Of a stretch of 64,000 nt of DNA, positions 1-53,963 are shown piece after piece; positions within the stretch are counted from its first letter, which is position 1; each line of letters starts with the position of its first letter. The stretch lies in contig NZ_CP041243.1 in assembly GCF_006547065.1 (NCBI RefSeq), positions 62,001-126,000 of the forward strand. Reading direction: 5' to 3'. The notes under the pieces are model-generated. The model was not told the DNA's origin. It ran no database searches and was given only the letters and a program-made list of their open reading frames with translations. The DNA is from Brevundimonas sp. M20. Its GTDB lineage: Bacteria > Pseudomonadota > Alphaproteobacteria > Caulobacterales > Caulobacteraceae. A program made the translations under genes and the position numbers.

Positions 1-2193
1 CGTGACGGGTCGGTGGTCCCGCCCGTCGCCGTGACGCGCTGGGAGGGCGACGATCCCTATCTGGTCGTGGCCGCCGACAAGGGCACCGCGACCTTCTCGG
101 ACATCGCCAACGGCGTGTCGGCCTCCTACGGATTCTGGCTGGATGACGCCTTCGCATCGGGCGGCTCGGTCGGCTACGACCACAAGGTCATGGGCATCAC
201 CGCCCGCGGCGCCTGGGAGGCCGTGAAGCGGCACTTCCGCGAGGAGGGCAAGGACATCCAGTCCGAGCCCTTCACAGTCGTCGGCGTCGGCGACATGTCG
301 GGCGACGTGTTCGGCAACGGAATGCTGCTGTCGAAGCAGATCAGGCTGGTCGCCGCCTTCGACCACCGCGACATCTTCATCGACCCGAACCCGGACCCCG
401 CCTCGTCGTGGGTCGAGCGGGAGCGGATGTTCAAACTGCCGCGCTCGTCCTGGCAGGACTACGACACGTCGAAGATTTCGGCAGGCGGCGGGGTCTTCTC
501 GCGTTCGGCCAAGTCGATCCAGCTCAGCCCCGAGATCAAGGCCGCGCTGGACATCCAGGACGACGTTCTGGACCCGGCGGCCCTGATGAAGGCCATCCTC
601 AAAGCTCCGGCCGAGCTGCTCTACTTCGGCGGCATCGGCACCTACATCAAGGCGCCGAACGAGACGGACGCCCAGGTCGGGGACAAGGCCAATGACGCCA
701 TCCGCATCGACGGCGCCGAGGTTCGCGCCAGGGTCATCGGCGAAGGCGCCAACCTGGGCCTGACCCAGGCGGGCCGTATCGCCTTCGCCCGCAGCGGCGG
801 TCGCATCAACACCGACGCCATCGACAACTCGGCGGGCGTCGACAGCTCCGACCACGAGGTCAACATCAAGATCCTCACCGGGGCGGCCATCGCCTCGGGC
901 GCGCTGAAACAGGAAGACCGCAACGCCCTGCTGGCCTCGATGACCGAGGAGGTCGGCCTCAAGGTTCTGGTCCATAACTACGACCAGACCCTCGCGCTGA
1001 CCCTGCAACAGGCCGAAGGCGCGGCCGCGCTGGATTCCCAGCAGCGCTTCATGCAGTGGCTGGGCGGCAAGGGTAAGCTGGACCGCAAGGTCGAGGGCCT
1101 TCCGGACGACCAGCGTCTGGCCGAGATGAAGGCGTCGGGCACGCCGCTGACCCGGCCGGAACTGGCGGTCCTGACCGCCTACTCCAAGCTGGAGTTGTTT
1201 GACGAGATCGTGACCACCACGGCGCCGGACGACGCCTTCTTCAAACAGACGCTGGTGCGCTACTTCCCCGGTCCGCTGGCGAAGTTCGAGGCCGACATGC
1301 AGCGCCACCGGCTGAAGCGCGAGATCATCTCGACCATCCTGTCGAACGAGATCGTCAACATGTGCGGCGCGACCTTCCCGGAACGTCTGCGCCTGTCGGC
1401 ACAGTGCGACACCGGCGCCATGGTCATCGCCTTCGAGGCGGCCCGCCAGATCTTCCGCCTCGACGAGGCGTGGGACGCGGTTTCGGCGCTGGACGGCAAG
1501 ATCCCGGCCGAGGCCCAGACGGCGCTCTATACGGAAATCTCGACGGTGCTGCGCCGCCAGACCTTCTGGCTGGCCCGCCGGGCGGCCCGTGACGGCGCGA
1601 CCGTGGACGGACTGATCGCGGCCTACCGTTCGGCCGCCGACGCCCTCCGCGCCGCCGGCGGCGCGGTCCTCAGCCGCTTCGAGGAAGGCCGTCTGGAAGC
1701 CCGTGTCCAGAAATTCGTCGGCCTCGGCGCGTCGGAAGAGATGGCCCGCGACTTCGCCATGCTGCGTCCTCTGGTCGCCACCGCCGACATCGGCGATCTG
1801 GCGCGTGAGGCGGGCTGGCCGGAACCGGCCATGGCCATGCTCTACCACCAGGTCGGCGCGGCCTTCGACTTCGACCGCCTGCGCGCGGCGGCGGGCGCCG
1901 TGCCGTCCGTGGATCATTTCGACCGTCTGGCCGTGCGCCGCATGATCGAGGATCTGATGGGTGAGCAGATGATCCTGACCCGCGCGGTGGCCAAGGCTTC
2001 CAGCGTGGCGGTCGGCGCCAGCGAGGCCGCGGCCGAGAAGGCCGTCGATGACTGGATCGGCTCACGTCTGGCCATGGTCGAGGCGGTCCGGGCCTCGGTG
2101 GACGAGATCGAGACCTCGGGCTCGGGCTGGACCTTCGCCAAGCTGACCATCGCCAACGCCTCGATCCGCGAGATCGCGTCCTCGGCCCGCTGA
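1..2193 (+). CDS. gdhZ: NAD-specific glutamate dehydrogenase, large GDH-180 type (5' end outside window)
   Basis: The reading frame is open from base 1, so about 730 C-terminal residues of a protein normally near 1,600 are seen. The family oxidatively deaminates glutamate to 2-oxoglutarate with NAD in the cytosol. Visible marks are the DKGTATFSD segment of the catalytic core (about residue 25 of the visible part) and the Rossmann motif GVGDMSGDVFGNG (about 95-107), followed by the long helical C-terminal region specific to the 180-kDa class. In Caulobacter the orthologue (GdhZ) also acts on FtsZ and links nitrogen metabolism to division; that role here is inferred. An inverted repeat follows the stop. 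Identity is very secure; the true start is not visible. Confidence 0.95.
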   Translation, partial: RDGSVVPPVAVTRWEGDDPYLVVAADKGTATFSDIANGVSASYGFWLDDAFASGGSVGYDHKVMGITARGAWEAVKRHFREEGKDIQSEPFTVVGVGDMSGDVFGNGMLLSKQIRLVAAFDHRDIFIDPNPDPASSWVERERMFKLPRSSWQDYDTSKISAGGGVFSRSAKSIQLSPEIKAALDIQDDVLDPAALMKAILKAPAELLYFGGIGTYIKAPNETDAQVGDKANDAIRIDGAEVRARVIGEGANLGLTQAGRIAFARSGGRINTDAIDNSAGVDSSDHEVNIKILTGAAIASGALKQEDRNALLASMTEEVGLKVLVHNYDQTLALTLQQAEGAAALDSQQRFMQWLGGKGKLDRKVEGLPDDQRLAEMKASGTPLTRPELAVLTAYSKLELFDEIVTTTAPDDAFFKQTLVRYFPGPLAKFEADMQRHRLKREIISTILSNEIVNMCGATFPERLRLSAQCDTGAMVIAFEAARQIFRLDEAWDAVSALDGKIPAEAQTALYTEISTVLRRQTFWLARRAARDGATVDGLIAAYRSAADALRAAGGAVLSRFEEGRLEARVQKFVGLGASEEMARDFAMLRPLVATADIGDLAREAGWPEPAMAMLYHQVGAAFDFDRLRAAAGAVPSVDHFDRLAVRRMIEDLMGEQMILTRAVAKASSVAVGASEAAAEKAVDDWIGSRLAMVEAVRASVDEIETSGSGWTFAKLTIANASIREIASSAR

Positions 2194-2216
2194 CGCCTCG
2201 AGCAGGCTGCTGATGC

Positions 2217-2245
2217 GCCGGTACGTCCAATTTTGACGTACCGGC
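2217..2245 (+). terminator. Inverted repeat after gdhZ, possible terminator or operator
   Basis: Arms GCCGGTACGTC and GACGTACCGGC pair perfectly over 11 bp around a 7-nt CAATTTT loop, 23 bases after the gdhZ stop. No T tract follows, so it is either a non-canonical terminator or 3' stabiliser, or a protein-binding palindrome for the next gene. The rest of the 267-bp gap to the stress-protein gene holds several short TCCGG repeats and no gene. Confidence 0.4.
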
Positions 2246-2460
2246 GTGTCATACTCCGGACTCTGACAGCCGACAGCAGGGCGCCGAGGCGGCTATGTCC
2301 GATATGTCCGGTGTTTTTGATGAGTCCGGTTGAGTAAATTCAACAGGTTGCGGAGTCCGGCCCGGACATGGCGGACTCTTCGGCTCCGGTGGGCGGCAGG
2401 GGCCGTTTCGCGGTCCCCGACCTGATCTGCTAGACGTTGTCGGCTGAGGGAGGGCGAACC

Positions 2461-2931
2461 ATGCCCAGGAAGTTTCTCGTCGTCGTGGACGACAGCCCCG
2501 AGTTCGAGGGCGCCTTGCGTTATGCCTCGCGCCGGGCCCGCTCAACGGGCGGCCATGTCGTGCTGTTGCGCGTCATCCCGCCCGCCGCATCCGACGCCCA
2601 CTGGGCCGGCGTGCGCGAGGAGATCGAGCGCCAGACTCGCGCCGAGGCCGAGGCCGAACTGAACCGCTGGGCCGGGGAGGCCGCCGAACGCTCCGGCTCG
2701 ACCCCCATCCTGCTGATCGAGCGCGGGGAGCCGCAGGGCTGCATCCGCAAGGTCGTCGGGGAAGACAACGACATCAAGATTCTGGTGCTGGCGTCGGGGG
2801 AGGGCAGTCGCGGCCCCGGCCCGCTGGTCGCCGCCGTGGTCAAACAGGGCGCCGCCTTCACGGGTCGCAAGCTTCCCGTCACCATCGTCCCCGGCGCCCT
2901 GACCGAACAGGACATCGAGGACCTGGCATGA
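2461..2931 (+). CDS. Universal stress protein (UspA family)
   Basis: A 156-residue single Usp domain protein. The start MPRKFLVVVDDSPE is chosen because a GGAGGG Shine-Dalgarno lies about six bases upstream; an in-frame codon 24 bases earlier is less likely. The first strand with its Asp-Asp pair, the long helix rich in Glu/Ala (about 60-80) and the final strand PVTIVPG fit the Usp fold. The usual ATP-binding glycine signature is degenerate (SGEGSRGPGPLV), so nucleotide binding is uncertain. Cytosolic. It stands alone, followed within five bases by a copy of the dispersed hairpin element and then by the Nfu gene. Confidence 0.85.
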   Translation: MPRKFLVVVDDSPEFEGALRYASRRARSTGGHVVLLRVIPPAASDAHWAGVREEIERQTRAEAEAELNRWAGEAAERSGSTPILLIERGEPQGCIRKVVGEDNDIKILVLASGEGSRGPGPLVAAVVKQGAAFTGRKLPVTIVPGALTEQDIEDLA

Positions 2932-2935
2932 TCTC

Positions 2936-2977
2936 GGGGCCAACGCTCGCCGCGCGGCGGATCGCTGCTTGAGCCCC
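2936..2977 (+). repeat. Dispersed 3'-end hairpin element, copy 1
   Basis: This lies four bases after the stress-protein stop, in the same sense. It shares the frame CGCTC, stem, GCG loop, stem, TCGCTGCTTGAGC with four other copies. Here the central stem is GCCGC/GCGGA, four pairs plus an outer G-A mismatch, and the outer flanks GGGC/GCCC can also pair. The other copies use different stem bases. Confidence 0.7.
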
Positions 2978-3037
2978 TCACCCTCTCGTTGCCCTGCGGC
3001 TCTTGAATGGGCGGGGCCGGAAGCGCACTTACCCCTC

Positions 3038-3595
3038 ATGTTCATCCAGACCGAACCGACGCCGAACCCCAACGTCCTGAAGTTCCTGCCGGGACGGGAC
3101 GTGTCGGAGGATCCCCGCGACTTCGTCAACATCGACGAGGCCGCCGCCTCGCCGCTGGCCGAGGCCCTGTTCGAACTGGATGGCGTGACCTCGGTCTTCT
3201 TCGGTTACGACTACATCTCCGTGACCCGCGACGCCCAGGGGCTGGAGTGGAACCAGATGAAGGCCCCGATCCTGGCGGCCATCATGGATCACTTCGTCTC
3301 CGGCGCACCCCTGTTCCGCGGCGGGACGTTCGACAGCGCCGACCCGGACGGCGAGGACACCGAGATCGTCGCCGAGATCAAGTCGCTGCTGGACAGCCGC
3401 ATCCGCCCGGCGGTGGCCCAGGACGGCGGCGACATCCTGTTCGACGCCTTCAACGCGGAGACCGGGGTCCTGTCCCTGCGCATGCGGGGCGCCTGCGCCG
3501 GCTGCCCGTCGTCCTCCGCCACCCTCAAGGCCGGGGTCGAGCAGATGATGAAGCACTACGTCCCCGAAGTGACCGCCGTCGAACAGGTCATTTAA
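3038..3595 (+). CDS. nfuA: NifU family Fe-S cluster scaffold/carrier (Nfu type)
   Basis: A 185-residue cytosolic protein with an N-terminal Nfu domain (about 1-90, beginning MFIQTEPTPNPN) and a C-terminal NifU domain (about 108-185). Cys153 and Cys156 form the CxxC that binds a bridging 4Fe-4S cluster between subunits. The family takes clusters from the SUF/ISC machinery to apoproteins such as aconitase or radical-SAM enzymes; miaB, a likely client, lies 3 kb downstream. The start is placed at the conserved MFIQTE, since the longer frame extends through a repeat. Copies of the dispersed hairpin flank the gene on both sides. The family assignment is firm; the symbol is by analogy. Confidence 0.9.
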   Translation: MFIQTEPTPNPNVLKFLPGRDVSEDPRDFVNIDEAAASPLAEALFELDGVTSVFFGYDYISVTRDAQGLEWNQMKAPILAAIMDHFVSGAPLFRGGTFDSADPDGEDTEIVAEIKSLLDSRIRPAVAQDGGDILFDAFNAETGVLSLRMRGACAGCPSSSATLKAGVEQMMKHYVPEVTAVEQVI

Positions 3596-3639
3596 GGGCG
3601 CTACCGCTCGCGACGCGGTCGCTCGCTGCTTGAGCGCGG
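3596..3639 (+). repeat. Dispersed 3'-end hairpin element, copy 2
   Basis: Begins at the base after the Nfu TAA stop. The central stem GCGAC/GTCGC (3610-3614 with 3618-3622) closes a GCG loop; outer GCGCT/AGCGC can pair. Same orientation as the gene. It is nearly identical to the copy at 53964-54007 and differs from the others at paired stem positions in a compensating way. Confidence 0.75.
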
Positions 3640-3713
3640 TTTGGTCCGCGCGCCGGTCTGGAACTTGAAACGATTTCGTTCGCCCTGCCGACCGACGCGG
3701 GCCATAAGACATC

Positions 3714-4298
3714 ATGCCCCGGTTTGAGAGTGACAGTGACGCCCTGCGTCTTGGCGAAGCGCTTGCCGCCCTGCGTCGCGCGCGCGGGTTGAGCCAGGCC
3801 GAGGCGGGCGCCCGGGTCGGCATGACCAGTCAGGGCTGGGGCCTGTATGAGGCGGGCAAACGCCCCGGCCTGTTCCGCCCTGATGTCCAGCGCCGCCTGA
3901 CCGGCGCGGTCGATGCGACCCCGGAGGCCCTGGCCCTGCTGCTGTCCGATGCGTCCGCCCGGTCGCCGTCCACGCCTGACGGTCTGGAGAGCGCGGGCAG
4001 GGATTTCGCGGCGGCCGCACCGACCGCCCTTCGCCGTGTCCAGCTCTCCACCGATGATCTCGCCCCCTGGGCCGCATCCGGCGTGACGCTGGAGTACGCC
4101 CCCGGTCGCTGGCCGCGCCGGGATCAGGGCTGTGTGATCGACCTCGCGGACGGCGCCCGTCTGATCCGGATCTACGACCGGTCCGAGGGGGAGGATCTGA
4201 TCGTTCGCGGCGGCCCCGGCGGTCTGTCCGTCGAGGAACGGTTACCACGCGCGCGGATCAGGGCCGTCTCCGCCGTCGTCGCCCGGCTGGATCTCTGA
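3714..4298 (+). CDS. XRE-family regulator with degenerate repressor-like C-terminal domain
   Basis: 194 residues. Residues about 11-65 form a lambda-repressor-type HTH (RARGLSQAEAGARVGMTSQ, then LYEAGKRP). A low-complexity linker leads to a C-terminal half (about 110-194) that reads as short beta strands (CVIDLADGARLIRIYD...LIVRG), resembling the fold of S24/LexA-type repressors. I see no Ser-Lys peptidase dyad, so self-cleavage is unlikely. It may bind DNA as a dimer and sense a ligand; targets are unknown. A second XRE gene follows 66 bases downstream on the same strand. HTH assignment is strong; the C-terminal fold is inference. Confidence 0.75.
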   Translation: MPRFESDSDALRLGEALAALRRARGLSQAEAGARVGMTSQGWGLYEAGKRPGLFRPDVQRRLTGAVDATPEALALLLSDASARSPSTPDGLESAGRDFAAAAPTALRRVQLSTDDLAPWAASGVTLEYAPGRWPRRDQGCVIDLADGARLIRIYDRSEGEDLIVRGGPGGLSVEERLPRARIRAVSAVVARLDL

Positions 4299-4336
4299 TG
4301 AAACTCTTTTGTTGCAATCTTGGGGTGTTTGTGAAA

Positions 4337-4354
4337 CTGTTCGGTATCGAACAG
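4337..4354. promoter_or_regulatory. Palindromic operator candidate upstream of XRE gene
   Basis: CTGTTCG-GTAT-CGAACAG is a perfect 7-4-7 inverted repeat ending ten bases before the ATG at 4365 and running into its GGAG ribosome site. Position and symmetry suggest autorepression by the XRE protein it precedes, which is common for this family. This is inferred from symmetry alone. Confidence 0.55.
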
Positions 4355-4364
4355 GAGAGCCGCC

Positions 4365-4745
4365 ATGGCCCGCGCCGCCGCCCCGGATCATATCGACGCC
4401 TATGTGGGCGCCCGCATCAGCCTTCGGCGCTCGGCGCTCGGTCTCTCGCAGGCCGCGCTGGCCCAGCGCATCGGCGTCAGCTTCCAGCAGGTGCAGAAAT
4501 ACGAGACCGGCCAGAACCGCATCTCCGCCTCGCGCCTGCATCGGACGGCGGTGGTGCTGGGCGCCTCGGTGGACGCCTTCTTCCCGGCGATCGAGGGCGC
4601 CGCGGCGGGCGAGGCGGACATGCTGCGCGCGCTGGGCAGCACGGCCGACGGGCGCGCCGTGGCGATGGCCTTCCCGCGTATTCCCGACAAGGGCTTGCGG
4701 CAGGCTCTGGCCCGGATTGTAACGGCGCTGGCGCCCGCATCCTGA
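4365..4745 (+). CDS. SinR-like XRE transcriptional regulator
   Basis: 126 residues: an HTH of about 55 residues near the N terminus (LGLSQAALAQRIGVSFQQVQKYETGQNRISASRL), then a short alanine-rich helical tail. It is clearly paralogous to the XRE protein at 11032, sharing the FQQxQKYExGxNRISAS stretch. Such proteins are common in Caulobacterales. The start has CAGGAG upstream, overlapping a palindrome that is a likely autoregulatory operator. The next gene, tsaB, starts 37 bases after the stop. Function in DNA binding is secure; regulon unknown. Confidence 0.85.
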   Translation: MARAAAPDHIDAYVGARISLRRSALGLSQAALAQRIGVSFQQVQKYETGQNRISASRLHRTAVVLGASVDAFFPAIEGAAAGEADMLRALGSTADGRAVAMAFPRIPDKGLRQALARIVTALAPAS

Positions 4746-4782
4746 ACCCGGTCCTGTGCGGCGCGCCCGGGGAAGGTCGCGC

Positions 4783-5469
4783 ATGAAGGTTCTGGTGATT
4801 GATACGGCGCTCGGCCTGTGCACCGCCGGTGTTTTCGAGGTTGAGAACGGGACTGCGCGCCCGCTCGGCCTGCGCTCCGAAGCCATGGCCAAGGGCCACT
4901 CCGAACGACTGGGCGGCCTCGCCCGCGACGCCGTCGCCGAGGCGGGCGGGTTCGACGCCGTCGACCGGATCGGCGTGACCGTGGGGCCGGGCTCCTTCAC
5001 CGGCCTGCGGGTCGGCCTGGCCTTCGCCCAGGGACTGGGCGCCGCCCTGCATCGCCCGGTGGTCGGGGTCTCCACCCTTGATGCGCTCGCCGCCTCCGTG
5101 GACGGACCGACGACGGCCGCCCTGATCGACGCCCGTCGGGGGCAGGTCTACGCCCGGTTCTGGCGCGACGGCGCGGCGGACGGTCCGCCCGAGGCCCTGT
5201 CTCTGGAGCAGGCGGCCGAGCGGGTGGCCGCCCTCGGCGCCGGCGCCACCCTCGTCGGGACAGGCGCCGCGCTGTTGGCGGCGGCCGCGTCCGGCCTGAT
5301 CGTGACGGACCTGCCCGGCGCCTCTCCCGAGGCGCTGGCGCGTCTGACCGCCGCCGCCCGCCCCGATCAGGCGCCGCCGTCGCCCCTGTATCTTCGGGCG
5401 CCCGACGCCACGCCGCCGACCCGCTTGCCGGGCCAGCCCCGAGGTCAGCCCCGGGCGGCGTCCGCGTGA
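4783..5469 (+). CDS. tsaB: tRNA threonylcarbamoyladenosine biosynthesis protein TsaB
   Basis: 228 residues of the ASKHA-fold TsaB family, the dimerising partner of TsaD and TsaE in making t6A at position 37 of ANN-decoding tRNAs. Visible marks are the N-terminal VIDTALGLCTAG strand pair, the GHSERL segment (about 39-44) and VTVGPGSFTGLRVG (about 66-78). The start ATGAAGGTTC is taken because a GGAAGG ribosome site lies upstream; a longer frame adds nine unsupported residues. The stop overlaps the GTG start of rimI, as in many alphaproteobacteria, so translation is probably coupled. Confidence 0.92.
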   Translation: MKVLVIDTALGLCTAGVFEVENGTARPLGLRSEAMAKGHSERLGGLARDAVAEAGGFDAVDRIGVTVGPGSFTGLRVGLAFAQGLGAALHRPVVGVSTLDALAASVDGPTTAALIDARRGQVYARFWRDGAADGPPEALSLEQAAERVAALGAGATLVGTGAALLAAAASGLIVTDLPGASPEALARLTAAARPDQAPPSPLYLRAPDATPPTRLPGQPRGQPRAASA

Positions 5470-5903
5470 CCGGCGCGCCGGAGGGACAGGCGGAGCGGCT
5501 CGCGGCCCTGCACGCCACCGCCTTCGACGCACCGTGGGACGCCGCCGCCTTCGCCGCCCTGCTGGACCAGCCGGGCGTCTTCGCGGTGGAGCAGGACCAC
5601 GGCTTCATCCTGATGCGGGCCGTCGCCGACGAGGCGGAAATCCTGACTCTGGCGGTCCGGCCCGAGGCGCGCAGGGGCGGGGAGGGGACCCGTCTGGTCG
5701 CCGAGGGCGCCGCCGCCGCCGCCCTCGCCGGGGCGGATCGGGTCTTCCTCGAGGTGGCGGAAGACAACGTCGCCGCCCGCGCCCTGTACGCCCGCGCGGG
5801 CTTCACCGAGGCCGGTCGTCGGCCCCGCTATTATGCGCGTCCGGACTGTTCGCATGTCGACGCCCTGCTTCTCGCGCTGAACTTGCCGGGGCGGCTTCCC
5901 TAG
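5466..5903 (+). CDS. rimI: Ribosomal-protein-alanine N-acetyltransferase, RimI-like GNAT
   Basis: 145 residues forming one GNAT domain. The acetyl-CoA pyrophosphate loop is seen as EARRGGEGTRLV (about 62-73), preceded by the LTLAVRP strand and followed by the EVAEDNVAARALYARAGF motif typical of RimI. The family acetylates the N-terminal alanine of ribosomal protein S18; other substrates are possible. The GTG start overlaps the tsaB stop by four bases (GTGA). The tsaB-rimI-fur order is conserved in this lineage. Confidence 0.85.
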   Translation: MTGAPEGQAERLAALHATAFDAPWDAAAFAALLDQPGVFAVEQDHGFILMRAVADEAEILTLAVRPEARRGGEGTRLVAEGAAAAALAGADRVFLEVAEDNVAARALYARAGFTEAGRRPRYYARPDCSHVDALLLALNLPGRLP

Positions 5904-5932
5904 AGCGCCGACGCCGCCTATTCTCCTGCGCC

Positions 5933-6412
5933 ATGGACCGGATCGAAAAACTCTGCGCCGACCGCGGCATGCGCATGACCGAGCAACGTCGCGTGATCGC
6001 GCGGGTGCTCTCCGCCGCCGCTGACCACCCGGATGTGGAGGAGCTGTACCGCCGGGCCTCGGCCATCGACCCGCACATCTCCATCGCCACCGTCTACCGC
6101 ACGGTCCGCCTGTTCGAGGAAGCCGGCGTGGTCGAGAAGCACGACTTCGGCGACGGCCGCAGCCGCTATGAAGAGGCCGGCGACGATCACCACGACCACC
6201 TGATCGACACCAAGTCGGGCGAGGTCATCGAGTTCTTCGACGCCGAGATCGAGCGCCTGAAGACCGAGATCGCCGAACGCCTCGGCTTCAAGCTGATCGG
6301 CCACAAGCTGGAACTGTACGGCACGCCCATCGAGGGCGCCGAGCCGTCGAACCGCGAAGGCCTGATCTTCACCCGTCACGCCGCCCGGGTCGATCCGGCG
6401 GATATCGGCTAG
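5933..6412 (+). CDS. fur: Ferric uptake regulator Fur
   Basis: 159 residues. A winged-helix DNA-binding domain (about 1-82, with the ISIATVYRTVRLFEEAGVV recognition region) is followed by the metal-binding dimerisation domain with the His cluster DDHHDHL (His86, 87, 89). Unlike E. coli Fur there is no CxxC after this cluster (DTKSGEV instead), so the structural zinc site is absent, as reported for several alphaproteobacterial Fur proteins. It represses iron-uptake genes with Fe(II); a Fur-like box lies before the TonB receptor at 26057. The start at 5933 is the conserved MDRIEKLCADRGMRMT. Confidence 0.92.
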   Translation: MDRIEKLCADRGMRMTEQRRVIARVLSAAADHPDVEELYRRASAIDPHISIATVYRTVRLFEEAGVVEKHDFGDGRSRYEEAGDDHHDHLIDTKSGEVIEFFDAEIERLKTEIAERLGFKLIGHKLELYGTPIEGAEPSNREGLIFTRHAARVDPADIG

Positions 6413-6445
6413 CTGGAAGGCGCGTCGGGCGGTAAAAGCCCGTCC

Positions 6446-7822
6446 ATGACCGATACCCTCGTCCCGCCGTCGGGGAAGCAGGCCGCGCCCAAGCGCCTGT
6501 TCATCAAGACCTACGGCTGCCAGATGAACGTCTATGACTCGGAGCGCATGGCCGATGTGCTGCGCCCGCTGGGCTATGCCCCGACGGACAGCGCCGAGAC
6601 CGCCGACTTCGTCATCCTGAACACCTGCCACATTCGCGAGAAGGCGGCCGAGAAGGTCTATTCCGAGCTCGGCAAGATGCGCGAGCTGAAGGACGCCAAA
6701 AACGGCGCCATGACCATCGCCGTGGCGGGCTGTGTCGCCCAGGCTGAGGGCGAGGAGATCATGAAGCGTCAGCCGGCGGTCGATCTGGTGGTCGGCCCGC
6801 AGGCCTATCACCAGCTGCCGGAACTGCTGACCCGCACCGCCCGCGCGCGCGGCGAGCGGATCGGCGCCGACTTCGCCCCGGACGAAAAGTTCGACGCCCT
6901 GCCCGCCGAACGCGGCGTCGAGGGCTTCACCGCCTTCCTGACCGTGCAGGAGGGCTGCGACAAATTCTGCACCTTCTGCGTGGTGCCCTACACCCGCGGC
7001 GCCGAGTGGTCGCGCCCGGTGGCGGCCATCCTGTCCGAGGCCCGCGAACTGGCGGCCAAGGGCGTGCGCGAGGTCACCCTGCTGGGCCAGAACGTCAACG
7101 CCTATGACGGCGAGGGGCTGGACGGGAAGCCGTCGACGCTGGCCCGTCTGGCTTATCTGCTGGCCGAGGTGCCGGGGCTGGACCGCATTCGCTATACGAC
7201 CAGTCATCCAAACGACATGTCGGGCGATCTGATCCAGGCGCACCGCGATCTGGACGTCCTGATGCCCTGGCTTCACCTGCCGGTGCAGTCCGGCTCGGAC
7301 CGCATCCTGCGGCTGATGAACCGAAAGCACGGTCGTCAGAAGTATTTCGACCTCATCGAGCGCATCCGCGAGGCCCGGCCCGACATGGCGATGTCCGGCG
7401 ACTTCATCGTCGGCTTCCCGGGCGAGAGCGACCGGGACTTCGAGGACACGATGGATCTGGTCCGACGGGTGACCTACGCCTCTGCCTTCTCGTTCATGTA
7501 CTCGCCGCGTCCCGGCACGCCCGCCTCGACCATGGGGGCGCAGGTCCCCGCCGAGGTCTCGCGCGAACGGCTGCAGGCGCTGCAGGCCCTGCTGTTCGAA
7601 CAGCAGACCGCCTTCAACGAGTCCCGCGCGGGCATGACCATCCCGGTCCTGTTCGAGCGTCCGGGCAAGTTCGACGGCCACGTCACCGGCCGCTCGCCCT
7701 GGCTTCAGCCGGTGTATGTTGACGGCGTCGCGGATCAACTGATCGGCCAGATCGTTCCGGTGAAGATCGAGAGCGGCGGCCTGAAGTCCCTCAGCGGCAC
7801 ACTTCTGAAGAAAGCGGCCTAG
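6446..7822 (+). CDS. miaB: tRNA-2-methylthio-N6-dimethylallyladenosine synthase MiaB
   Basis: 458 residues, full length. The N-terminal MTTase domain carries Cys25, Cys61 and Cys96 (TYGCQMN, NTCHIRE, AGCVAQ) for the auxiliary 4Fe-4S cluster. The radical-SAM CxxxCxxC is Cys171, Cys175, Cys178 ([10 protein letters not shown]). A C-terminal TRAM domain ends the protein. It adds the methylthio group to i6A37 of tRNAs reading UNN codons. Its TAG shares a base with the GTG of phoH, starting a chain of overlapping genes to lnt. Confidence 0.96.
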
Positions 7823-8811
7823 TGGCGAGAGAGAGTGAATTTCTGGCTTTGGGCGATGAAGCCCTTCACGCGGTCATCGGTCCGAACAGCCGGCACATCG
7901 CCCTGATCGAGGACCGCTTCAAGGTGCTGGTCGAAACGCCCGGCGGCGGGGTCTCCATCAACGGCTCGGCGCGGGACCGCGCCCAGGCCAAGCGGGTCAT
8001 CGAGGTCCTGGCCGACCGCGCCGATCAGGGTGTGGAGATCACCGAGGCCGACGTCCGGACCGCGCTGGGCGCCGCCGTGGCCCAGCCGCGCGCCGGTCAG
8101 GGCTCGGTCGCGCCCGACGCCGTGGCCCTGCCGGTTGGTCGGCGTGGCGCCATCGCGCCCAAGACGGCGGCCCAGGCCCGCTATCTGGAGCTTCTGTCCC
8201 GCTGCGAGCTGACCTTCGGGGTCGGTCCGGCGGGGACGGGCAAGACCTTCCTCGCGGCCGCCTACGGCGCCTCCCTGCTGCGGCGCGGACAGGTGGACCG
8301 GCTGGTCATCACCCGCCCGGCGGTGGAGGCAGGGGAGAAGCTTGGCTTCCTGCCCGGCGATCTGAACGAGAAGGTCGATCCCTATCTGGCCCCCATCTGG
8401 GAAGCGCTGAACGACATCCTCGGTCCCGACGACGTCCGTCGCCGTCGCGACAAGGGCGAGATCGAGGCCGCGCCGATCGCCTTCATGCGGGGCCGCACGC
8501 TCAGTCACGCCTTCATCATCGTCGACGAGGCGCAGAACCTGACCCGCCTTCAGATGAAGATGGTCCTCACCCGTCTGGGCGAGGGCGCGCGGATGGTCGT
8601 CACCGGCGACCCCTCGCAGATCGATCTGGTGAACCGCCGGGATTCCGGCCTGCCCCATGCCCTGCGAATTCTGGACGCGGTGCAGGGGGTCGGCGTTCTG
8701 AAGTTCGAGGCGCAGGACGTGGTCCGGCATGCGATGGTCGAGCGCATCGTGCGGGCCTATGACGCCGATGCGGCGGCCCCGTCGCCCGATCTGGAAGAGC
8801 CGCGCCGGTGA
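7822..8811 (+). CDS. phoH: PhoH-like ATPase (YbeZ)
   Basis: 329 residues. An N-terminal KH-like region (about 20-65, VLVETPGGGVSINGS) precedes the PhoH P-loop domain with Walker A GPAGTGKT (135-142) and Walker B FIIVDEAQN (about 232-240), then TGDPSQID. PhoH/YbeZ works with the RNase YbeY in RNA handling and ribosome quality control. It starts with GTG overlapping the miaB stop by one base and its own stop overlaps the ybeY start, so stoichiometric translation is likely. Cytosolic. Confidence 0.92.
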   Translation: MARESEFLALGDEALHAVIGPNSRHIALIEDRFKVLVETPGGGVSINGSARDRAQAKRVIEVLADRADQGVEITEADVRTALGAAVAQPRAGQGSVAPDAVALPVGRRGAIAPKTAAQARYLELLSRCELTFGVGPAGTGKTFLAAAYGASLLRRGQVDRLVITRPAVEAGEKLGFLPGDLNEKVDPYLAPIWEALNDILGPDDVRRRRDKGEIEAAPIAFMRGRTLSHAFIIVDEAQNLTRLQMKMVLTRLGEGARMVVTGDPSQIDLVNRRDSGLPHALRILDAVQGVGVLKFEAQDVVRHAMVERIVRAYDADAAAPSPDLEEPRR

Positions 8812-9269
8812 TCGAGATCGAGGTCGAGGACGAGGCCTGGTCCGCCGCCCTGCCGCAGGTCGAGGCGGTGGTGAACCGTGCGGCTTCGGCGGCGCTGGGA
8901 ACGATCAAGGGCGACATCGTCGTTCTGCTGACCGACGATGAGAGCGTGCGCGAAATCAACGCCCGTTTCCGCGACCGCGACCGGCCGACCAATGTCCTGT
9001 CCTTTCCTGCGGCCGGGAGCGCCTTTCCGCATCTGGGCGATCTGACCCTGGCCTACGGCGTCTGTGCGCGGGAGGCGGTCGAACAGGGCAAGACCCTGTC
9101 GGATCACCTGTCGCATCTGACCGTCCACGGCGTCCTGCACCTGCTGGGCCGCGACCACGAGGACGACGCCGAGGCGGAGGAGATGGAGGCCGAGGAGCGA
9201 TCCATCCTTGCCAGTCTGGGCGTCGCCGACCCATACACGGTGGATGAGCATTCTCCCGACGACGCCTGA
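8808..9269 (+). CDS. ybeY: Endoribonuclease YbeY
   Basis: 153 residues. The zinc motif HGVLHLLGRDH supplies His107, His111 and His117, exactly the family pattern. YbeY is needed for 16S rRNA 3'-end maturation and late 70S quality control. A GTG start overlaps the phoH stop (GTGA). The lnt gene begins 26 bases before the ybeY stop in another frame, so the corC/hlyC gene that usually sits between ybeY and lnt is missing here. Confidence 0.94.
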   Translation: MIEIEVEDEAWSAALPQVEAVVNRAASAALGTIKGDIVVLLTDDESVREINARFRDRDRPTNVLSFPAAGSAFPHLGDLTLAYGVCAREAVEQGKTLSDHLSHLTVHGVLHLLGRDHEDDAEAEEMEAEERSILASLGVADPYTVDEHSPDDA

Positions 9270-10857
9270 TGCCGACAGCCCCCGCGCGCGGTTGATCCTG
9301 CGTTTCGGCCGCATCGGTCTGGCGTTGGCCGCCGGCGCGGCGGCGGCGCTGGCCCATCCGCCGTTCGGCATCCTGCCCGGCCTTCTGGGTTACGCCCTGC
9401 TGATGTTCCTGTCGGAGCGCTCCACAACGGTGCGCGGCGCCTTCTGGATGGGCTGGCTGGCCGGGTTCGCCTACTTCTTCATCAGCTGCTGGTGGGTGGC
9501 CGAGGCGTTTCTGGTCAACCCGGCGCAGGCGTGGATGGCGCCCTTCGCCGCCTCCGCCCTGCCGATCGGTCTGGCCCTGTTCTGGGGAACGGCGACGGCC
9601 CTGTATCGCCGCTTCCTGCCGTCCGGCATGACCCGGGTTCTGCTGTTCGCCGCCCTGTTCTGCCTTCTGGAATGGCTGCGGGGGCATGTGCTGACCGGTT
9701 TCCCCTGGAACCCGGCCGGGGCCAGCTGGAAGGCGGGATCAGCGGCGTCGCAGTTCGCCGCCCTGGCGGGGATCTATGGCCTCAGCTTCGTCACCGTGGC
9801 GGCCGCCGCCGCCTTCGGCCCGCTGCTGAACGCCGGGTCGCGGAAGGCCCGGATCGTCACGGCGGTTCTCGGCGCCCTGACCTTCGCGGTGCTGATGATC
9901 GGCGGCGCGGCGCGCCTCTCGTCGGCCCGGCTGGAGTTGACCCCGACGGTGGTGCGCATCGTTCAGGCCGACGTGCCCCAGGCGACCAAATGGACGCCCG
10001 AGGCCTATCAGGGGATTGTCGACCGCTATGTGAACCTGACGGCCCGTCCCGGCGCGGTGACCCCCGATCTGATCATCTGGCCGGAAGGGGCCCTGCCGGC
10101 CTCGGCCAACGATGTCTTCGCGCCGGGCGCGCCCGAGGCCCTGGCCATCGCCCGGGCGGTCCAGCCGGGCCAGAGCCTGATCCTGGGTCTCGGGCGAGGC
10201 GAGGCCGATCCCTCGGCGCGGGAAGGGGCGCGCTATTTCAACAGCCTGTTCGCCCTGACGGATCAGGGCGGCGAGGGGCTGCGGGTGTCCGCTGTCTATG
10301 ACAAATACCGGCTGGTTCCGTTCGGCGAGTACCTGCCCGCAGGCGGGGTGATGAGCGCCCTGGGTGTTCGCGCCCTGACCCATATGCCGCTGGACTTCAG
10401 CCATGGACCGAAGCCTGCGCCCATCAACATTCCCGGCGTCCCGCGGGCCCAGCCGCTGATCTGCTACGAAAGCCTTTACCCGGGCTTCACGCCCGGCGCG
10501 GCGGGGCGGCCCGGCTGGATCGTCAACATCTCGAATGACGCCTGGTTCGGGCGGACGTCAGGACCGGTCCAGCACCTGAATCTGGCCAGCTATCGCGCCA
10601 TCGAGACCGGCTTGCCGGTGGTCCGCTCGACCCCGACCGGCGTGTCGGCGATGATCGACCCTTGGGGTCGTGTGATTGACGGCCAGAGACTGGACCCGGG
10701 CGAGAGCGGCGTCATTGACGCCCGCCTTCCGGCGCCGACCGGTGTGACCCTGTACGGCCGTGTCGGGGACCTGTTGTTCTGGCTGGCCGTTCTCGGCGGA
10801 TTGCTTGTCACGGCTCCGTGGCGTCGGCTGATTCGTTCCAAGACCGTTGTTCCTTAA
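9244..10857 (+). CDS. lnt: Apolipoprotein N-acyltransferase Lnt
   Basis: 537 residues with about six or seven N-terminal membrane segments and a periplasmic nitrilase-type domain. The catalytic triad can be assigned as Glu281 (WPEGALP), Lys354 (YDKYRLVPFGEY) and Cys407 (ICYES). It transfers the third acyl chain to the N-terminal cysteine of mature lipoproteins in the inner membrane; several lipoproteins are encoded in this window. The start MSILPTTPDADS lies inside the ybeY 3' end; a longer frame would begin deeper within ybeY and is less likely. A C-terminal membrane segment precedes the stop. Confidence 0.95.
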   Translation: MSILPTTPDADSPRARLILRFGRIGLALAAGAAAALAHPPFGILPGLLGYALLMFLSERSTTVRGAFWMGWLAGFAYFFISCWWVAEAFLVNPAQAWMAPFAASALPIGLALFWGTATALYRRFLPSGMTRVLLFAALFCLLEWLRGHVLTGFPWNPAGASWKAGSAASQFAALAGIYGLSFVTVAAAAAFGPLLNAGSRKARIVTAVLGALTFAVLMIGGAARLSSARLELTPTVVRIVQADVPQATKWTPEAYQGIVDRYVNLTARPGAVTPDLIIWPEGALPASANDVFAPGAPEALAIARAVQPGQSLILGLGRGEADPSAREGARYFNSLFALTDQGGEGLRVSAVYDKYRLVPFGEYLPAGGVMSALGVRALTHMPLDFSHGPKPAPINIPGVPRAQPLICYESLYPGFTPGAAGRPGWIVNISNDAWFGRTSGPVQHLNLASYRAIETGLPVVRSTPTGVSAMIDPWGRVIDGQRLDPGESGVIDARLPAPTGVTLYGRVGDLLFWLAVLGGLLVTAPWRRLIRSKTVVP

Positions 10858-11031
10858 GAGCGATTCCCCTATCGGTCACTGCGCTTGCGAAAGGATTCCC
10901 GCCCAGCGGGAAAGACGGCGCCTTAAGGGCAACTAACCGTCTGTGGCCGCCCTGATTTCTGCGTTTTTTGGTGACACAGCCCCGCTGGCGGCGCATTCAG
11001 GCTTGGCCGATTATCGACTTCCAAAAGGCAT

Positions 11032-11454
11032 ATGACTATGGCGAGAGGCAAGGGCGAGGATGGTCCTCATCCCGTGGACCGGCATGTTGGCCGGCGTGTC
11101 TGCGAGAAGAGGCTGGCCCTCGGCTATAACCAGAGCGATCTCGGTCGCGCCCTGGGGCTGACTTTCCAGCAGATTCAAAAGTACGAGAAGGGCGCTAACC
11201 GCATCTCGGCTTCGAAGCTCTGGGACATCGCGCGGTTCTTCAAGGTGGACATCGGCTACTTCTTCGAAGGTCTGACCGGCGCCCAGCTGGCCGGTATGGC
11301 CGAAGGCGAAACCGCATTCGAGCACGACTTCCCGGCGACCCGCTATACGATCGAGATCGGCCGTCTGGCGCCGCAGCTGTCGACCCGGCAGCAAAAGCTG
11401 GCGCTTGAGCTGATCCGTGATATGGCCGACCGCAAGGAGACCGACGAGGACTGA
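11032..11454 (+). CDS. SinR-like XRE transcriptional regulator
   Basis: 140 residues. The HTH (about 22-75) contains LGYNQSDLGRALGLTFQQIQKYEKGANRISAS and is paralogous to the protein at 4365. The tail (about 85-140) is helical, ending in an acidic stretch. In many alphaproteobacteria an XRE gene sits between lnt and metK; here the expected metK-trmB does not follow and the next gene is on the other strand. The start is ATGACTATGGCG; the second ATG six bases later is also possible. The 174-bp gap before it contains no other gene and is its probable promoter region. Confidence 0.85.
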   Translation: MTMARGKGEDGPHPVDRHVGRRVCEKRLALGYNQSDLGRALGLTFQQIQKYEKGANRISASKLWDIARFFKVDIGYFFEGLTGAQLAGMAEGETAFEHDFPATRYTIEIGRLAPQLSTRQQKLALELIRDMADRKETDED

Positions 11455-11468
11455 GGTCCTCGTCGCCT

Positions 11469-11999
11469 TCAACCGCCGCCCTCGTTGCCCGTTGACCGCC
11501 GCCGACCAAAGTCGGGGGCCGCAGCCTTCTGCTCAGCCCAGTAGGCGGCGCCGTCACGTGGCTTGAACATGGTCTTGGCCACGCCGTCGCGCGAGACGAC
11601 CGCGAAGGTGTTTGTCGAGGCCTGATACAGCAGCACATCGCCGTTGGGGCGCTCAGCCCGATCCACGTCCGCCGGCGGCCGGCTGGTGAAGGCCTTCACC
11701 CTGGTCAGATAGTCCTCGGCCGTGCGCGCGCCGAAATCCGCGCCGTTGCGTTCGAACAGTCGCGCCACCTTGGCGTCCACCGTCTCGCGTCGGTTGGCGG
11801 TCAAAACCGGGCGGGCCTTTTCGACCGGCGCTTCAACAGCCTCCATCGGGCCTTCGGCGGAGGTCAGCGTCGCCGCCGCGCCCTCCGCCGCCCGGTCCCG
11901 GGTCTCGACCGCCGAGCCCCCGTCCCCGCAACCGGCCAGTCCCGCCGATCCCACCACCAATGCGGCCCCCACGGCCACGATCATCGTCGTTCTGCGCAT
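11469..11999 (-). CDS. Lipoprotein with C-terminal domain resembling polymorphic-toxin nucleases
   Basis: 176 residues. The signal sequence ends in a lipobox LAGC (Cys24), so it should be a lipid-anchored envelope protein. After a low-complexity linker (25-70), residues about 77-157 follow a pattern I recognise from BECR-fold/CdiA-type tRNase toxin domains: FERNGADFGARTAEDYL, then RPNGDVLLY, NTFAVVSRDG and MFKPRDGAAYW. Toxin versions usually open with histidines (HxxKHG); here the positions read Leu81 and Asn85, so catalysis may be lost. GGAGGG precedes the ATG. No adjacent immunity gene is seen. The domain match is from memory and needs a profile search; the lipoprotein call is firm. Confidence 0.6.
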   Translation of the reverse strand: MRRTTMIVAVGAALVVGSAGLAGCGDGGSAVETRDRAAEGAAATLTSAEGPMEAVEAPVEKARPVLTANRRETVDAKVARLFERNGADFGARTAEDYLTRVKAFTSRPPADVDRAERPNGDVLLYQASTNTFAVVSRDGVAKTMFKPRDGAAYWAEQKAAAPDFGRRRSTGNEGGG

Positions 12000-12121
12000 C
12001 GCACCCTCCTACGTTGAAACCCACCGGAAACAAGCCTAACCACAGGTTAACAGTTCTTGCAATGTTCTCTTTCGCTGAAGCGTCACTCGACGGCGGTGGA
12101 CGGCGTCGCTAGATCAAGGGG

Positions 12122-13348
12122 ATGACCACGGCATCGCTGTCCGGACGCAAGGTCCTGCTCATCGTCGGCGGCGGCATCGCCGCCTACAAGGCGCTGGAGC
12201 TCGTGCGCCTTCTGAAGAAGTCGGGCGCCGAGGTGATGAGCCTGCTCACATCGGCGGGGGCCGAGTTCGTCACCCCCATGTCGCTGGCGGCCCTGACCGG
12301 CCATCCGGTGCGGCAGGCCCTGTTCATGCCCGAGGACGAGACGGCCATGGGCCATATCGAGCTGTCGCGCTGGGCCGATCTGGTGGTGGTGGCGCCGGCG
12401 ACGGCGGGGCTGATCGCCAAGGCGGCGAATGGCTTCGCCGACGATCTGGCGTCGACCACCCTGCTGGCCACCGACAAGAAGGTCCTGCTGGCCCCGGCGA
12501 TGAACGTCCGCATGTGGCTGCATCCGGCGGTGCAGGCCAATGTGGAGCGCCTGAAGGGCTTTGACGGCTTCCACGGTGTCGCCGTCGTCGGCCCGGATGA
12601 GGGCGAAATGGCGTGTGGCGAGTTCGGACCGGGCCGCATGGCCGAGCCCACCGCCATCCTGTCGGCCATTCAGGGTCTGCTGGCCGGTCCCGATGGGCGC
12701 CCTCTGGCGGGCCGTAGGGCCGTTGTGACCGCCGGTCCGACCTTCGAGCCCATCGACCCTGTTCGGGGCCTGACAAACCGCTCCAGCGGCAAGCAGGGCT
12801 ACGCCATCGCCACGGCTCTGGCCGAACTGGGCGCCGAGGTGACCCTCGTATCAGGCCCTGTCGCTATCGACGCCCCCGTCGGCGTTACGCGCATCTGGGT
12901 CGAGAGCGCGCGCGAGATGCAGGCCGAGGTCCAGAAGTATCTGCCCGCCGACATCGCGGTGATGAGCGCCGCCGTCGCCGACTGGCGCGTTGACGGCGTC
13001 GCGTCCGGCAAGATCAAGAAGGCTCCCGGCGGCCCGCCGTCGCTGGCCCTGATCGAGAACCCGGACATTCTGGCCGGCGTCTCCAAGCCCGGTAAGGCGC
13101 GTCCGAAGCTGGTCGTCGGCTTCGCCGCCGAGACCTCGGACCTTGAGGCCAACGCCCGCGCCAAACTGTCCCGCAAGGGCTGCGACTGGATCGTCGGCAA
13201 CGACGTGTCGGACGACGTCTTCGGCGCCGACGGCAATGCGGTCACCCTGTTCACGAAGGACGGCGGCGCCGACGTCTGGCCGCGCCAGTCCAAGACCGAG
13301 GTGGCCCGCAAGTTGGCGGCCAAGATTGCTGACCATTTCAAGGCCTGA
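12122..13348 (+). CDS. coaBC: Bifunctional phosphopantothenoylcysteine decarboxylase/phosphopantothenate-cysteine ligase
   Basis: 408 residues. The N-terminal CoaC flavoprotein half (about 1-185) shows [14 protein letters not shown], the [17 protein letters not shown] segment and the PAMNVRMW motif, with the catalytic Cys loop in [16 protein letters not shown]. The C-terminal CoaB half (about 195-408) shows [25 protein letters not shown] and the KKAPGG loop. It performs two successive steps of coenzyme A synthesis in the cytosol. dut follows 19 bases after the stop; the coaBC-dut pairing is common in alphaproteobacteria, but ubiB-ubiE, often adjacent, are here 23 kb away. Confidence 0.95.
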
Positions 13349-13367
13349 GCCAGAAAGACCCGCGCCC

Positions 13368-13817
13368 ATGACGACCGTCCGCGTCGAACGCCTGCCGCAC
13401 GCCGAGGGCCTGCCGCTTCCGGCCTATGAGACCACCGGTTCGGCGGGGATGGATCTGCGCGCGGCCCTGCCGGAGGGGGAGCCCCTGACGCTCGCCCCGG
13501 GGGCTCGGGCGCTGGTTAAGACCGGCCTGAAGATCGCGCTGGAGCCGGGCTATGAGGCCCAGGTGCGGCCCCGTTCGGGCCTGGCGTTGAAGCACGGGAT
13601 CACCTGCCTGAACTCCCCCGGCACGGTCGACAGCGACTATCGCGGCGAGGTCGGGGTCATCCTGATCAACCACGGTCAGGAGCCCTTCGTGATCCAGCGC
13701 GGCGAGCGCATCGCCCAGATGGTCATCGCCCGCCACGAGCAGGCGACCATGATCGAGGTTGAGGCGCTGGACCAGACGATGCGCGGGGCGGGCGGTTTCG
13801 GCTCCACGGGGCGCTGA
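13368..13817 (+). CDS. dut: Deoxyuridine 5'-triphosphate nucleotidohydrolase
   Basis: 149 residues, normal trimeric dUTPase length. Motifs visible are [10 protein letters not shown] (I), [11 protein letters not shown] (II), [14 protein letters not shown] (III), RGERIAQM (IV) and the C-terminal arm [10 protein letters not shown] (V). It hydrolyses dUTP to dUMP and pyrophosphate, protecting DNA from uracil and feeding dTMP synthesis. The start [18 protein letters not shown] is taken because the longer open frame lies within coaBC. Confidence 0.95.
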
Positions 13818-13882
13818 TCCGGCCTTCGGGAGCGATTCCGCGAGACCGGCGTTAACCCTGCGAACGGGCCAGGCTTGGCCGT

Positions 13883-14269
13883 ATGCAGACGGAGACCTTC
13901 GGTATGGAGTCCCTCATCGATTCAATCACCGCCTTCCTGTCCGGTCTCTTCGGTCTGGCGCAGGGCGGGTTCGACGGCGTCAATCAGGTCATGGGCCTGC
14001 TGATCGCGGTGATCGCGGCTCTGGTCATGCCGGCGTGGAGCCGTCTGTGGGCGACCGCGCTGGGCGCGGCCTTCGTGCACATCCTGATCGGGGTGATTCG
14101 CCCGGTGCTGGACGGCGCCGCCCTGACCCTGCCGCCGCTGCTGACCCTGAGCTTCTGGATGACCGTGCTGGCCCTGTTCCTGGGCTATGCGATCGTCATC
14201 GCCGTCTTCTTCTTCATCAAGACGCTGTTCACCGGCGGCCGCCACCGCCACCGGGTGCACGTGCACTGA
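13883..14269 (+). CDS. Small inner-membrane protein of unknown function
   Basis: 128 residues with three hydrophobic segments (about 30-50, 52-72 and 85-112) and a short histidine-rich cytosolic tail (RHRHRVHVH). No enzyme motif is visible. A second possible start lies seven codons in (MESLIDSIT). It follows dut by 65 bases and faces dapB convergently, with a hairpin-rich region between. The His-rich end might bind metal; this is speculation. I do not recognise the family. Confidence 0.65.
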   Translation: MQTETFGMESLIDSITAFLSGLFGLAQGGFDGVNQVMGLLIAVIAALVMPAWSRLWATALGAAFVHILIGVIRPVLDGAALTLPPLLTLSFWMTVLALFLGYAIVIAVFFFIKTLFTGGRHRHRVHVH

Positions 14270-14308
14270 GCCCTGACGGGCTCAATGCATTCCTTTTGGG
14301 CCGCGGTC

Positions 14309-14325
14309 AGAAGGCTCAGCCTTCT
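14309..14325. terminator. Short hairpin between convergent genes
   Basis: AGAAGGC-TCA-GCCTTCT, a 7-bp stem with a 3-nt loop, lies 40 bases after the small membrane-protein gene. No T tract. It may end either convergent transcript. Confidence 0.35.
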
Positions 14326-14371
14326 CGACCCGACGCGGCCTGGCTAGCTGGCGGAAGAAGATGATCCTGAT

Positions 14372-14412
14372 GCGCTCAAGCAGCGAGGCTCCGCGAGCCG
14401 AGCGATAGCGCG
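14372..14412 (-). repeat. Dispersed 3'-end hairpin element, copy 3
   Basis: On the minus strand this reads GCGCTATCGCTC, stem GGCTC, loop GCG, stem GAGCC, then TCGCTGCTTGAGCGC. It lies 24 bases after the dapB stop in the dapB sense. The stem matches the copy at 22279. A separate perfect 8-bp hairpin (GACAAGCC-GTCA-GGCTTGTC, 14428-14447) overlaps the dapB stop itself. Confidence 0.75.
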
Positions 14413-14436
14413 CCGCGAAACGGTGCGGACAAGCCG

Positions 14437-15186: not shown

Positions 15187-15216
15187 ATCAGTTCCCCCAA
15201 GGACGGAAATCCCACC

Positions 15217-16401: not shown

Positions 16402-16511
16402 CCGGCGATCGTCCTCTTACTCTGGCCCCGTCCGCACGCCTGTTCCCGGCGTTTGCGTCAAAGGGCTGACCGGGCTGACATGGGCGCCCGATCCTGTGAT
16501 GCAAGTTTCAT

Positions 16512-16547
16512 GAAAAGACCCCGCCCGTCGCAGGACAAGCGGGGTCT
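16512..16547 (-). terminator. Rho-independent terminator after dnaK
   Basis: Minus strand AGACCCCGC ... GCGGGGTCT, a 9-bp stem with a 14-nt loop, followed by TTTT, 26 bases past the dnaK stop. It should reduce readthrough into dnaJ. Confidence 0.8.
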
Positions 16548-16573
16548 GGTTCAGCTCACACGAAAGCCGTGGC

Positions 16574-18475
<1,902 letters not shown>

Positions 18476-18619
18476 ATTTTTAGTCTCTCACTCCATATCA
18501 GCGGGCGGTGCGGCGGCCTTTTAAAGCGAAGCGCCGCGCGTGACCGCCCCCGATTTCAGGGTCTGCGGGATTTTTGGAAAGCCCCACGTCTTGCGGGGTT
18601 TTCCGGGGATTGACGCCGA

Positions 18620-18650
18620 TATGGGAAACACCCCCCTGCCTGCAAGGGCT
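18620..18650 (-). promoter_or_regulatory. Heat-shock (sigma-32/RpoH-type) promoter of dnaK
   Basis: On the minus strand CCCTTGCA is followed, 17 bases after CTTG, by CCCATAT, close to the alphaproteobacterial RpoH pattern CTTG-N17-CYTAT. Transcription would start near 18613 and give a leader of about 135 bases before dnaK. It is the only such pair I noticed in the divergent 275-bp gap. Pattern-based. Confidence 0.55.
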
Positions 18651-18750
18651 TTGGGCGATTCAGTCGTCAGGCTCCGTCAGGAGACGACCGCGAAAAGAGA
18701 GCACATCACACTGTTATTCGGAGCCGGGGGACGGCTCGGGGAGACATGAG

Positions 18751-19149: not shown

Positions 19150-19207
19150 TTTTTTCGGATCAGACGCCCTGCCGCCTCGCCGTTCTTGCGGGGAGGCGGT
19201 CCGCGGT

Positions 19208-53962: not shown

Positions 53963-53963
53963 G

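Follow-up and report, generated by a model that had tools for sequence, protein, structure and literature searches.

A short palindromic and probably mobile DNA repeat with two covarying stems dispersed through Brevundimonas genomes

A hairpin of 45 model positions is dispersed in 71 copies through the genome of Brevundimonas sp. M20, as counted by covariance-model search, and five of these copies lie in the 64-kb stretch of DNA analysed here (the window). Our preferred reading, at a probability of about 0.7, is that of a short palindromic DNA repeat that is dispersed in Brevundimonas, is mobile-like and acts in the manner of REP or RPE elements. The repeat carries neither a terminal GTAG nor a terminal CGTC tag, has no recognisable RAYT and is probably mobile. 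This interpretation is based on copy number, spread in the genus, indifferent orientation, covariation of two stems, differences between sites, changes in tandem number, a T-rich 5' side and in-frame copies; the indifferent orientation and the in-frame copies are also why we regard it as a DNA element. The preliminary description of the window had favoured a selected RNA structure, with a REP- or MITE-like element with a preferred insertion site as an alternative, and it is this alternative that fits best.

The five copies in the window

A two-half sequence pattern with at most one substitution matched at five places in the 64-kb window and nowhere else in it, and covariance-model matches placed these copies within a few bases of where they had been described. 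Copy 1 (plus strand, 2935-2979; G000:C1:64935-64979) gave 54.2 bits and lies 3 nt past the stop codon of a universal stress protein gene (plus strand, 2437-2931; Pfam Usp, E 2.2e-11), which is outside the element. Its inner stem, GCCGC/GCGGA, contains the single inner-stem mismatch that had been claimed for the five copies. Copy 2, the index copy (plus strand, 3596-3640; 71.4 bits), begins immediately past the stop codon of a gene for an Nfu/NifU-type scaffold protein (plus strand, 3038-3595; Pfam Nfu_N and NifU), likewise outside the element. On the plus strand it consists of outer arms at 3598-3602 and 3633-3637, the 5' loop side at 3603-3609, inner arms at 3610-3614 and 3618-3622, a GCG loop at 3615-3617 and the 3' loop side at 3623-3632. 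Copy 3 (minus strand, 14369-14413; 66.1 bits), copy 4 (plus strand, 22277-22321; 64.1 bits) and copy 5 (minus strand, 53963-54007; 71.8 bits) are each located in a space between convergent genes.

All five copies follow a stop codon in the sense of the gene, 0-23 nt past the called stops, as had been noted. The fixed orientation that was read from them stands on two informative copies, because between convergent genes, where copies 3-5 are found, either orientation is a sense orientation. With five copies the window is denser than the genome average of ~1.4 per 64 kb (71 in 3.315 Mb).

Two covarying stems around an asymmetric loop

The exact core pattern matched 36 times in the 3.315-Mb genome, compared to once for the same pattern read backwards. 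A covariance model built from these 36 copies gave 72 genome matches at E ≤ 1, from which 71 were kept (E up to 0.0011) and a partial 72nd match (E 0.66) was dropped. The inner stem of the preliminary description proved real, and an outer 5-bp stem, NNNCT/AGNNN, which is absent from that description, covaries as well. Between the outer stem and the 5-bp inner stem with its GCG loop lies a nearly invariant, asymmetric internal loop, with AN-CGCTC as its 5' side and TCGCTGCYTG as its 3' side.

Both stems are strongly supported by compensating changes. Among the 36 exact-pattern copies, 94.7% of 360 stem cells pair, and 62 cells hold double changes, where shuffles give 16.3; when the partner is shifted by 1-3 columns, pairing falls to 36-48%. 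In other records, 100 loci were chosen by sequence pattern and then searched with the covariance model, and the resulting 146 matches have 96.7% of 1418 stem cells paired and 267 double changes against 72.7 in shuffles. The covariation first noticed in five copies lies far above shuffles in both data sets, and stem changes that disrupt pairing are fewer than those that preserve it. In a set of 200 full-length copies (66 own and 134 other, after omission of 5 of the 71 own and 12 of the 146 other ones whose length is not exactly 45 nt), the inner stem is fully paired in 168, with 31 distinct sequences, and the outer stem in 163, with 21 distinct sequences. Inner and outer stem types occur in 58 combinations; a few stem types are common to many copies, so that the double changes are not all independent. 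Folding energy was mostly no better than that of shuffles among the copies tested (z above -1.2 except in locus L024). As judged from the aligned sequences, the evidence for the hairpin is covariation and not stability.

Position and orientation relative to genes

Genes were called with a simple codon-usage caller trained on 23 long ORFs of the window, and expected counts were taken from a background of 361 kb of the Brevundimonas sp. M20 genome. Six of the 71 own copies overlap a called gene and 65 lie outside. Between convergent genes there are 27 of these 65 intergenic copies (8.2 expected by length), between divergent genes 12 (20.1 expected) and between co-directional genes 26 (36.6 expected). 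For the 146 matches in other records, 13 overlap genes and 14 lack a called neighbour to one side, which leaves 119, divided into 35 in convergent (16.2 expected), 11 in divergent (31.5 expected) and 73 in co-directional spaces. Copy position is therefore non-random, with a two- to three-fold excess in convergent spaces and a deficit in divergent ones. In the co-directional spaces, 11 own copies run with the genes and 15 against them (p 0.56), and in other records 39 run with and 34 against (p 0.64). The link to stop codons and strand that the preliminary description had drawn accordingly survives for position and fails for strand: the gene-sense orientation of the window copies is not fixed genome-wide, and a role of the RNA at gene 3' ends is left unsupported.

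The two sides of the element differ in their surroundings. Its 5' side is closer to a gene than its 3' side, with median distances of 20 and 106 nt in the own genome (p 2.7e-4) and of 55 and 79 nt in other records (p 0.027); in the own genome this 5' side points toward a gene end 38 times and toward a gene start 27 times. The 5' flank is T-rich: in 62 own copies T makes up 34-52% at positions -9 to -2, and for 93 copies from other records it accounts for 43-54% at -6 to -2. A terminator-like hairpin with a T-rich tail precedes 9 of 63 copies, and the T-rich flank is then that tail; hairpins of any kind are not commoner upstream of the element (18 of 63) than downstream (22 of 63). In several antisense copies the flank looks like the complement of a Shine-Dalgarno region. 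The idea that a T-rich leader is part of the element was weakened by a copy in lysA without such a leader.

Close pairs in the own genome comprise nine in the same orientation, at 36-54 nt, and seven in opposite orientation, all with their 3' ends facing; opposite pairs in other records have the 3' ends facing in four cases and the other way in one. Along the own contig, copies are concentrated toward the start and the end (17, 7, 4, 4, 3, 1, 3, 4, 18 and 10 in ten bins), and clustering near the contig start is strong (51 sites, KS p 3.5e-6). An uneven spread was not clear in six other genomes, and strand bias relative to the assumed terminus was not significant (41-43 of 71).

Distribution in Brevundimonas and turnover at orthologous sites

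Copies are present in 128 of 131 Brevundimonas genomes; none was found in G006, G094 and G118, and G074 gave one weak match only. Since ~48 candidates were scored per genome, the per-genome counts are lower bounds. In a sample of the family, matches were obtained in 85 of 259 genomes and 4 of 22 genera, with weaker E-values outside Brevundimonas (best 2.7e-12) and 1-9 copies in most matching genomes. Pattern matches in Microvirga, Bradyrhizobium, Corynebacterium (two) and an actinomycete MAG (L075, L154, L142, L165, L136) gave no model match and were taken as chance. Several copies occur in records titled Bordetella sp. MAG (L121, L125). The title of L125 is probably wrong, because this record shows 89-90% identity over 4.9 kb to Brevundimonas sp. 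357 (L162).

The 45-nt copy at 3596-3640 had no match in plasmid and phage records. In viral contigs, 29 stretches matched the pattern and 15 of the 29 contained model matches. One IMG/VR contig of 45.6 kb, filed as viral, holds eight model matches in three stretches that possibly overlap (L405, L423, L426); it represents either host DNA or a prophage region with many copies of the element.

The Usp-Nfu locus was compared in the 30 best-matching genomes, with copies counted by reading the sequences. Downstream of Nfu, recognisable copies occur in 15 of 30 genomes, in both orientations (minus in L226, L227, L228, L231 and L246), and five genomes have two copies. At the Usp site, upstream of Nfu, copies are found in 12 of 30 genomes, all 12 in gene sense, which would speak against a mobile element unless these copies are shared by descent. 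Tandem number differs as well: in pairs of loci with 88-92% identity, a single copy in one corresponds to two or three in the other (L166/L171, L048/L052, L111/L144). Orthologous sites hence vary in presence, orientation and tandem number when their sequences are compared. Mobility is judged probable from such comparisons, in which no clean empty site between near-identical strains appeared. As for MITE features, the outer stem might act as short inverted repeats, and the compared sites were too divergent for a target-site duplication to be read.

Segments of ~3 kb are duplicated within G104 (L214/L215, 99.9% identical) and within G119 (L216/L217, 98.2%). Each holds three or four hairpin copies, and the G104 segment resembles type II secretion genes.

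Copies within genes

The best-documented copy within a gene is located in lysA (3032825-3032869; Pfam Orn_Arg_deC_N), whose protein has diaminopimelate decarboxylases as its closest solved structures, and the element there encodes SLKQRATASRAVATP. It occurs at the same place in 9 of the 30 best-matching loci. The stretch that matches the query is 399-401 nt long in eight of these element loci and 440 nt in L369, which has extra inserted residues beside the element; short alleles of 372-374 nt are found in 20 of the 30 loci, and one allele is intermediate at 389 nt. Among 120 listed LysA homologs, out of 7998 found, a fuzzy pattern detected the peptide in 42. Three further homologs that were missed by this pattern (P0009, P0118, P0119) carry 14 additional residues flanked on each side by native-like ones. 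Both the locus list and the homolog list favour relatives of Brevundimonas sp. M20. Paired double changes were read from the sequences at this site in the outer arms of L344 (TCCCT/AGGGA) and in the inner arms of L369 (GAGAC/GTCTC), and one-sided changes that break pairing in L346 and L347 (L141 being like L347). LysA represents a case of such an element turned into part of a housekeeping enzyme.

Taking own and other copies together, 19 overlap called genes, some of these calls being weak, and in 17 of the 19 the gene is on the opposite strand. According to Pfam, the overlapped genes include an ABC transporter (linker), ThiC (N-terminus) and, at their C-termini, SelO, aconitase, Mur ligase, formyl transferase and SpoU methylase, with an AFG1-like ATPase on the same strand. 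In six of eight C-terminal overlaps the protein terminates within the element. The element reads SLKQRATASRA in one frame, and APQAASDRGASD or SSSEPPRGER-stop in others. In-frame copies in conserved protein genes were found in lysA and in the ABC transporter, ThiC and SelO genes assigned by Pfam.

Search for a transposase and comparison with known repeats

The Y1_Tnp model (PF01797), which was positive in the E. coli and Caulobacter vibrioides controls, had no match in the Brevundimonas sp. M20 genome and matched in only 4 of 131 Brevundimonas genomes. No hairpin copy was present in the loci fetched for these four Y1 genes, which total 11,845 bases. Thus, a RAYT, which had been suggested as a possible companion of the element, is not recognisable in this genome, and no Y1 (HUH) transposase flanked by the repeats was found in it or in the 131 genomes of the genus.

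The repeat resembles the GTAG REPs that are associated with RAYTs in E. coli and Pseudomonas in being a short, intergenic, imperfect palindrome that is present in many copies, often beyond gene 3' ends, as single elements or dimers. It shares their dispersed and mainly intergenic occurrence (65 of 71 copies outside called genes, 94.7% pairing). It differs from them in having no GTAG at the hairpin end, two stems around a larger asymmetric loop, common head-to-tail pairs, and no RAYT, either in this genome or in 127 of the 131 examined. A GTAG (or GTGG) foot tag was not present in the aligned consensus, whose bottom strand, read as a consensus and not copy by copy, has NTAG inside the outer stem on the 3' side. 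The stems of E. coli REPs have conserved mismatches that are needed for TnpA-REP activity (PMC8266576).

In PMC3733652, the CGTC REPs of alphaproteobacteria are described as lacking a dedicated transposase and as lying mostly between convergent or co-directional genes, with some in genes; they carry CGTC at one end and have an 8-9-bp stem that starts with A-T pairs, a 4-5-base loop and predominantly head-to-head dimers. By that account, orphan status and genomic setting are as in the Brevundimonas repeat, which differs in its consensus without CGTC, its two 5-bp stems and its GCG loop and so does not belong to the CGTC REPs described there. The same article describes the Rickettsia palindromic elements (RPE) as palindromes in frame within protein-coding genes, a likeness to the in-frame copies reported here; host and sequence differ, and most Brevundimonas copies (65 of 71) are intergenic. 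The CcrM-associated intergenic structured repeats (CIR) of Caulobacter, of ~110 bp and with a GANTC site (PMC2229807, PMC10969869), are likewise structured intergenic repeats of the same bacterial order. Identity with CIR was ruled out, as none of the 71 copies contains GANTC. No report of the Brevundimonas element was found in a search of mainly open-access literature that took in parts of long result lists and little of the subscription journals.

Alternative explanations and proposed mechanism

A selected RNA structure at gene 3' ends, read on the strand of the preceding gene and acting as a terminator, 3' stabiliser or protein-binding site, would agree with the strong covariation, the excess between convergent genes (27 against 8.2 expected) and the gene sense of all five window copies and of all 12 copies at the Usp site. 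We rejected such an element on orientation and consider it very unlikely, given the ratios of 11:15 and 39:34 in co-directional spaces, the 12 own and 11 other copies between divergent genes and the mostly antisense copies within reading frames. Transcription may moreover end before the element where a T-tailed hairpin precedes it (9 of 63 copies). An intrinsic terminator is a GC-rich hairpin followed by a T run on the gene's strand; in this element the T-rich stretch lies before the hairpin, and copies 1-3, the three within window positions 1-20000, are absent from the 13 terminator-like sites listed there. Model scores showed no clear difference between gene-sense and other copies (medians 61.8 and 57.0, p 0.11). 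Rfam gave no match in the window at the gathering score and none at E ≤ 1 for window positions 2800-3800. As this repeat shows, strong two-sided covariation in bacterial intergenic hairpins does not by itself imply a functional RNA. A duplex DNA site for a host protein (a nucleoid, replication or segregation factor) could use the near-invariant loop bases as its recognition sequence and would suit the uneven spread in the own genome. It appears most improbable, as a duplex has no need of compensating arm changes, the uneven spread is unclear in the six other genomes and the strand bias is not significant.

A classical REP family whose RAYT has been lost or falls outside the Y1 model, its copies being fossils or rare movers, would explain the REP-like size, setting, dimers and bulged hairpin together with the rarity of Y1_Tnp (4 of 131 genomes), and CGTC REPs are likewise described as orphan (PMC3733652). 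We hold this to be decidedly unlikely: 36 exact-core copies persist in a genome with no Y1 gene, the loci of the four Y1 genes hold no copy, the repeat has no terminal tag in common with known REPs, and loss would be required in nearly all 131 genomes. Another explanation concerns the matching of the stems and is compatible with mobility, namely that the stems stay paired through a mutational process, either template switching in an imperfect palindrome or conversion between copies, and not through selection. The paired double changes at one orthologous place in coding lysA (L344, L369) and the discrete classes of stem types point in this direction, which we nonetheless regard as unlikely, because one-sided changes occur in lysA too (L346, L347, L141), L344 and L369 could be separate insertions, the latter with extra residues beside the element, and the numbers are small.

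For the mobile palindromic repeat that we favour, we hypothesize that one strand would fold into a bulged hairpin, and that copies would spread through an enzyme that reads both the shape and the loop bases of the folded strand, by analogy with TnpA-REP and the REPs of E. coli. The putative enzyme may not be a Y1 (HUH) transposase. Insertion would take place beside pyrimidine-rich DNA, and the surviving copies would be those just outside genes, i.e., in convergent spaces, beyond a terminator or ahead of a Shine-Dalgarno region, or those lying in frame inside genes. A bolder version is tentative, and we lean against it while thinking it possible: a self-standing class of bulged-hairpin mobile elements that a non-Y1 enzyme has spread through the genus, with both stems re-matched in place even in reading frames, and that repeatedly donates a ~14-residue peptide to housekeeping proteins. 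As an orphan REP-like family that spans the genus and offers abundant data for comparison, the repeat makes the movement of tag-less REPs without a RAYT testable.

A larger dispersed repeat

A second dispersed structured repeat of ~500-700 nt (core TTTACCGTTTCGACGA) was observed in 81 of 131 Brevundimonas genomes, with five matches in Brevundimonas sp. M20. Four own copies (L333-L336; G000:C1:3084151-3084271, 2766220-2766341, 228681-228802 and 2548675-2548796) are 88-97% identical over 499-700 nt, and no convincing hairpin was found in the stretches around them. Rfam gave no match in two loci holding this repeat (L267, L279). The larger repeat is a candidate, though unproven, parent element of the hairpin, as judged from its occurrence in relatives (L271, L279, L046, L054, L065, L098, L262), where the 45-nt hairpin often lies in or beside it.
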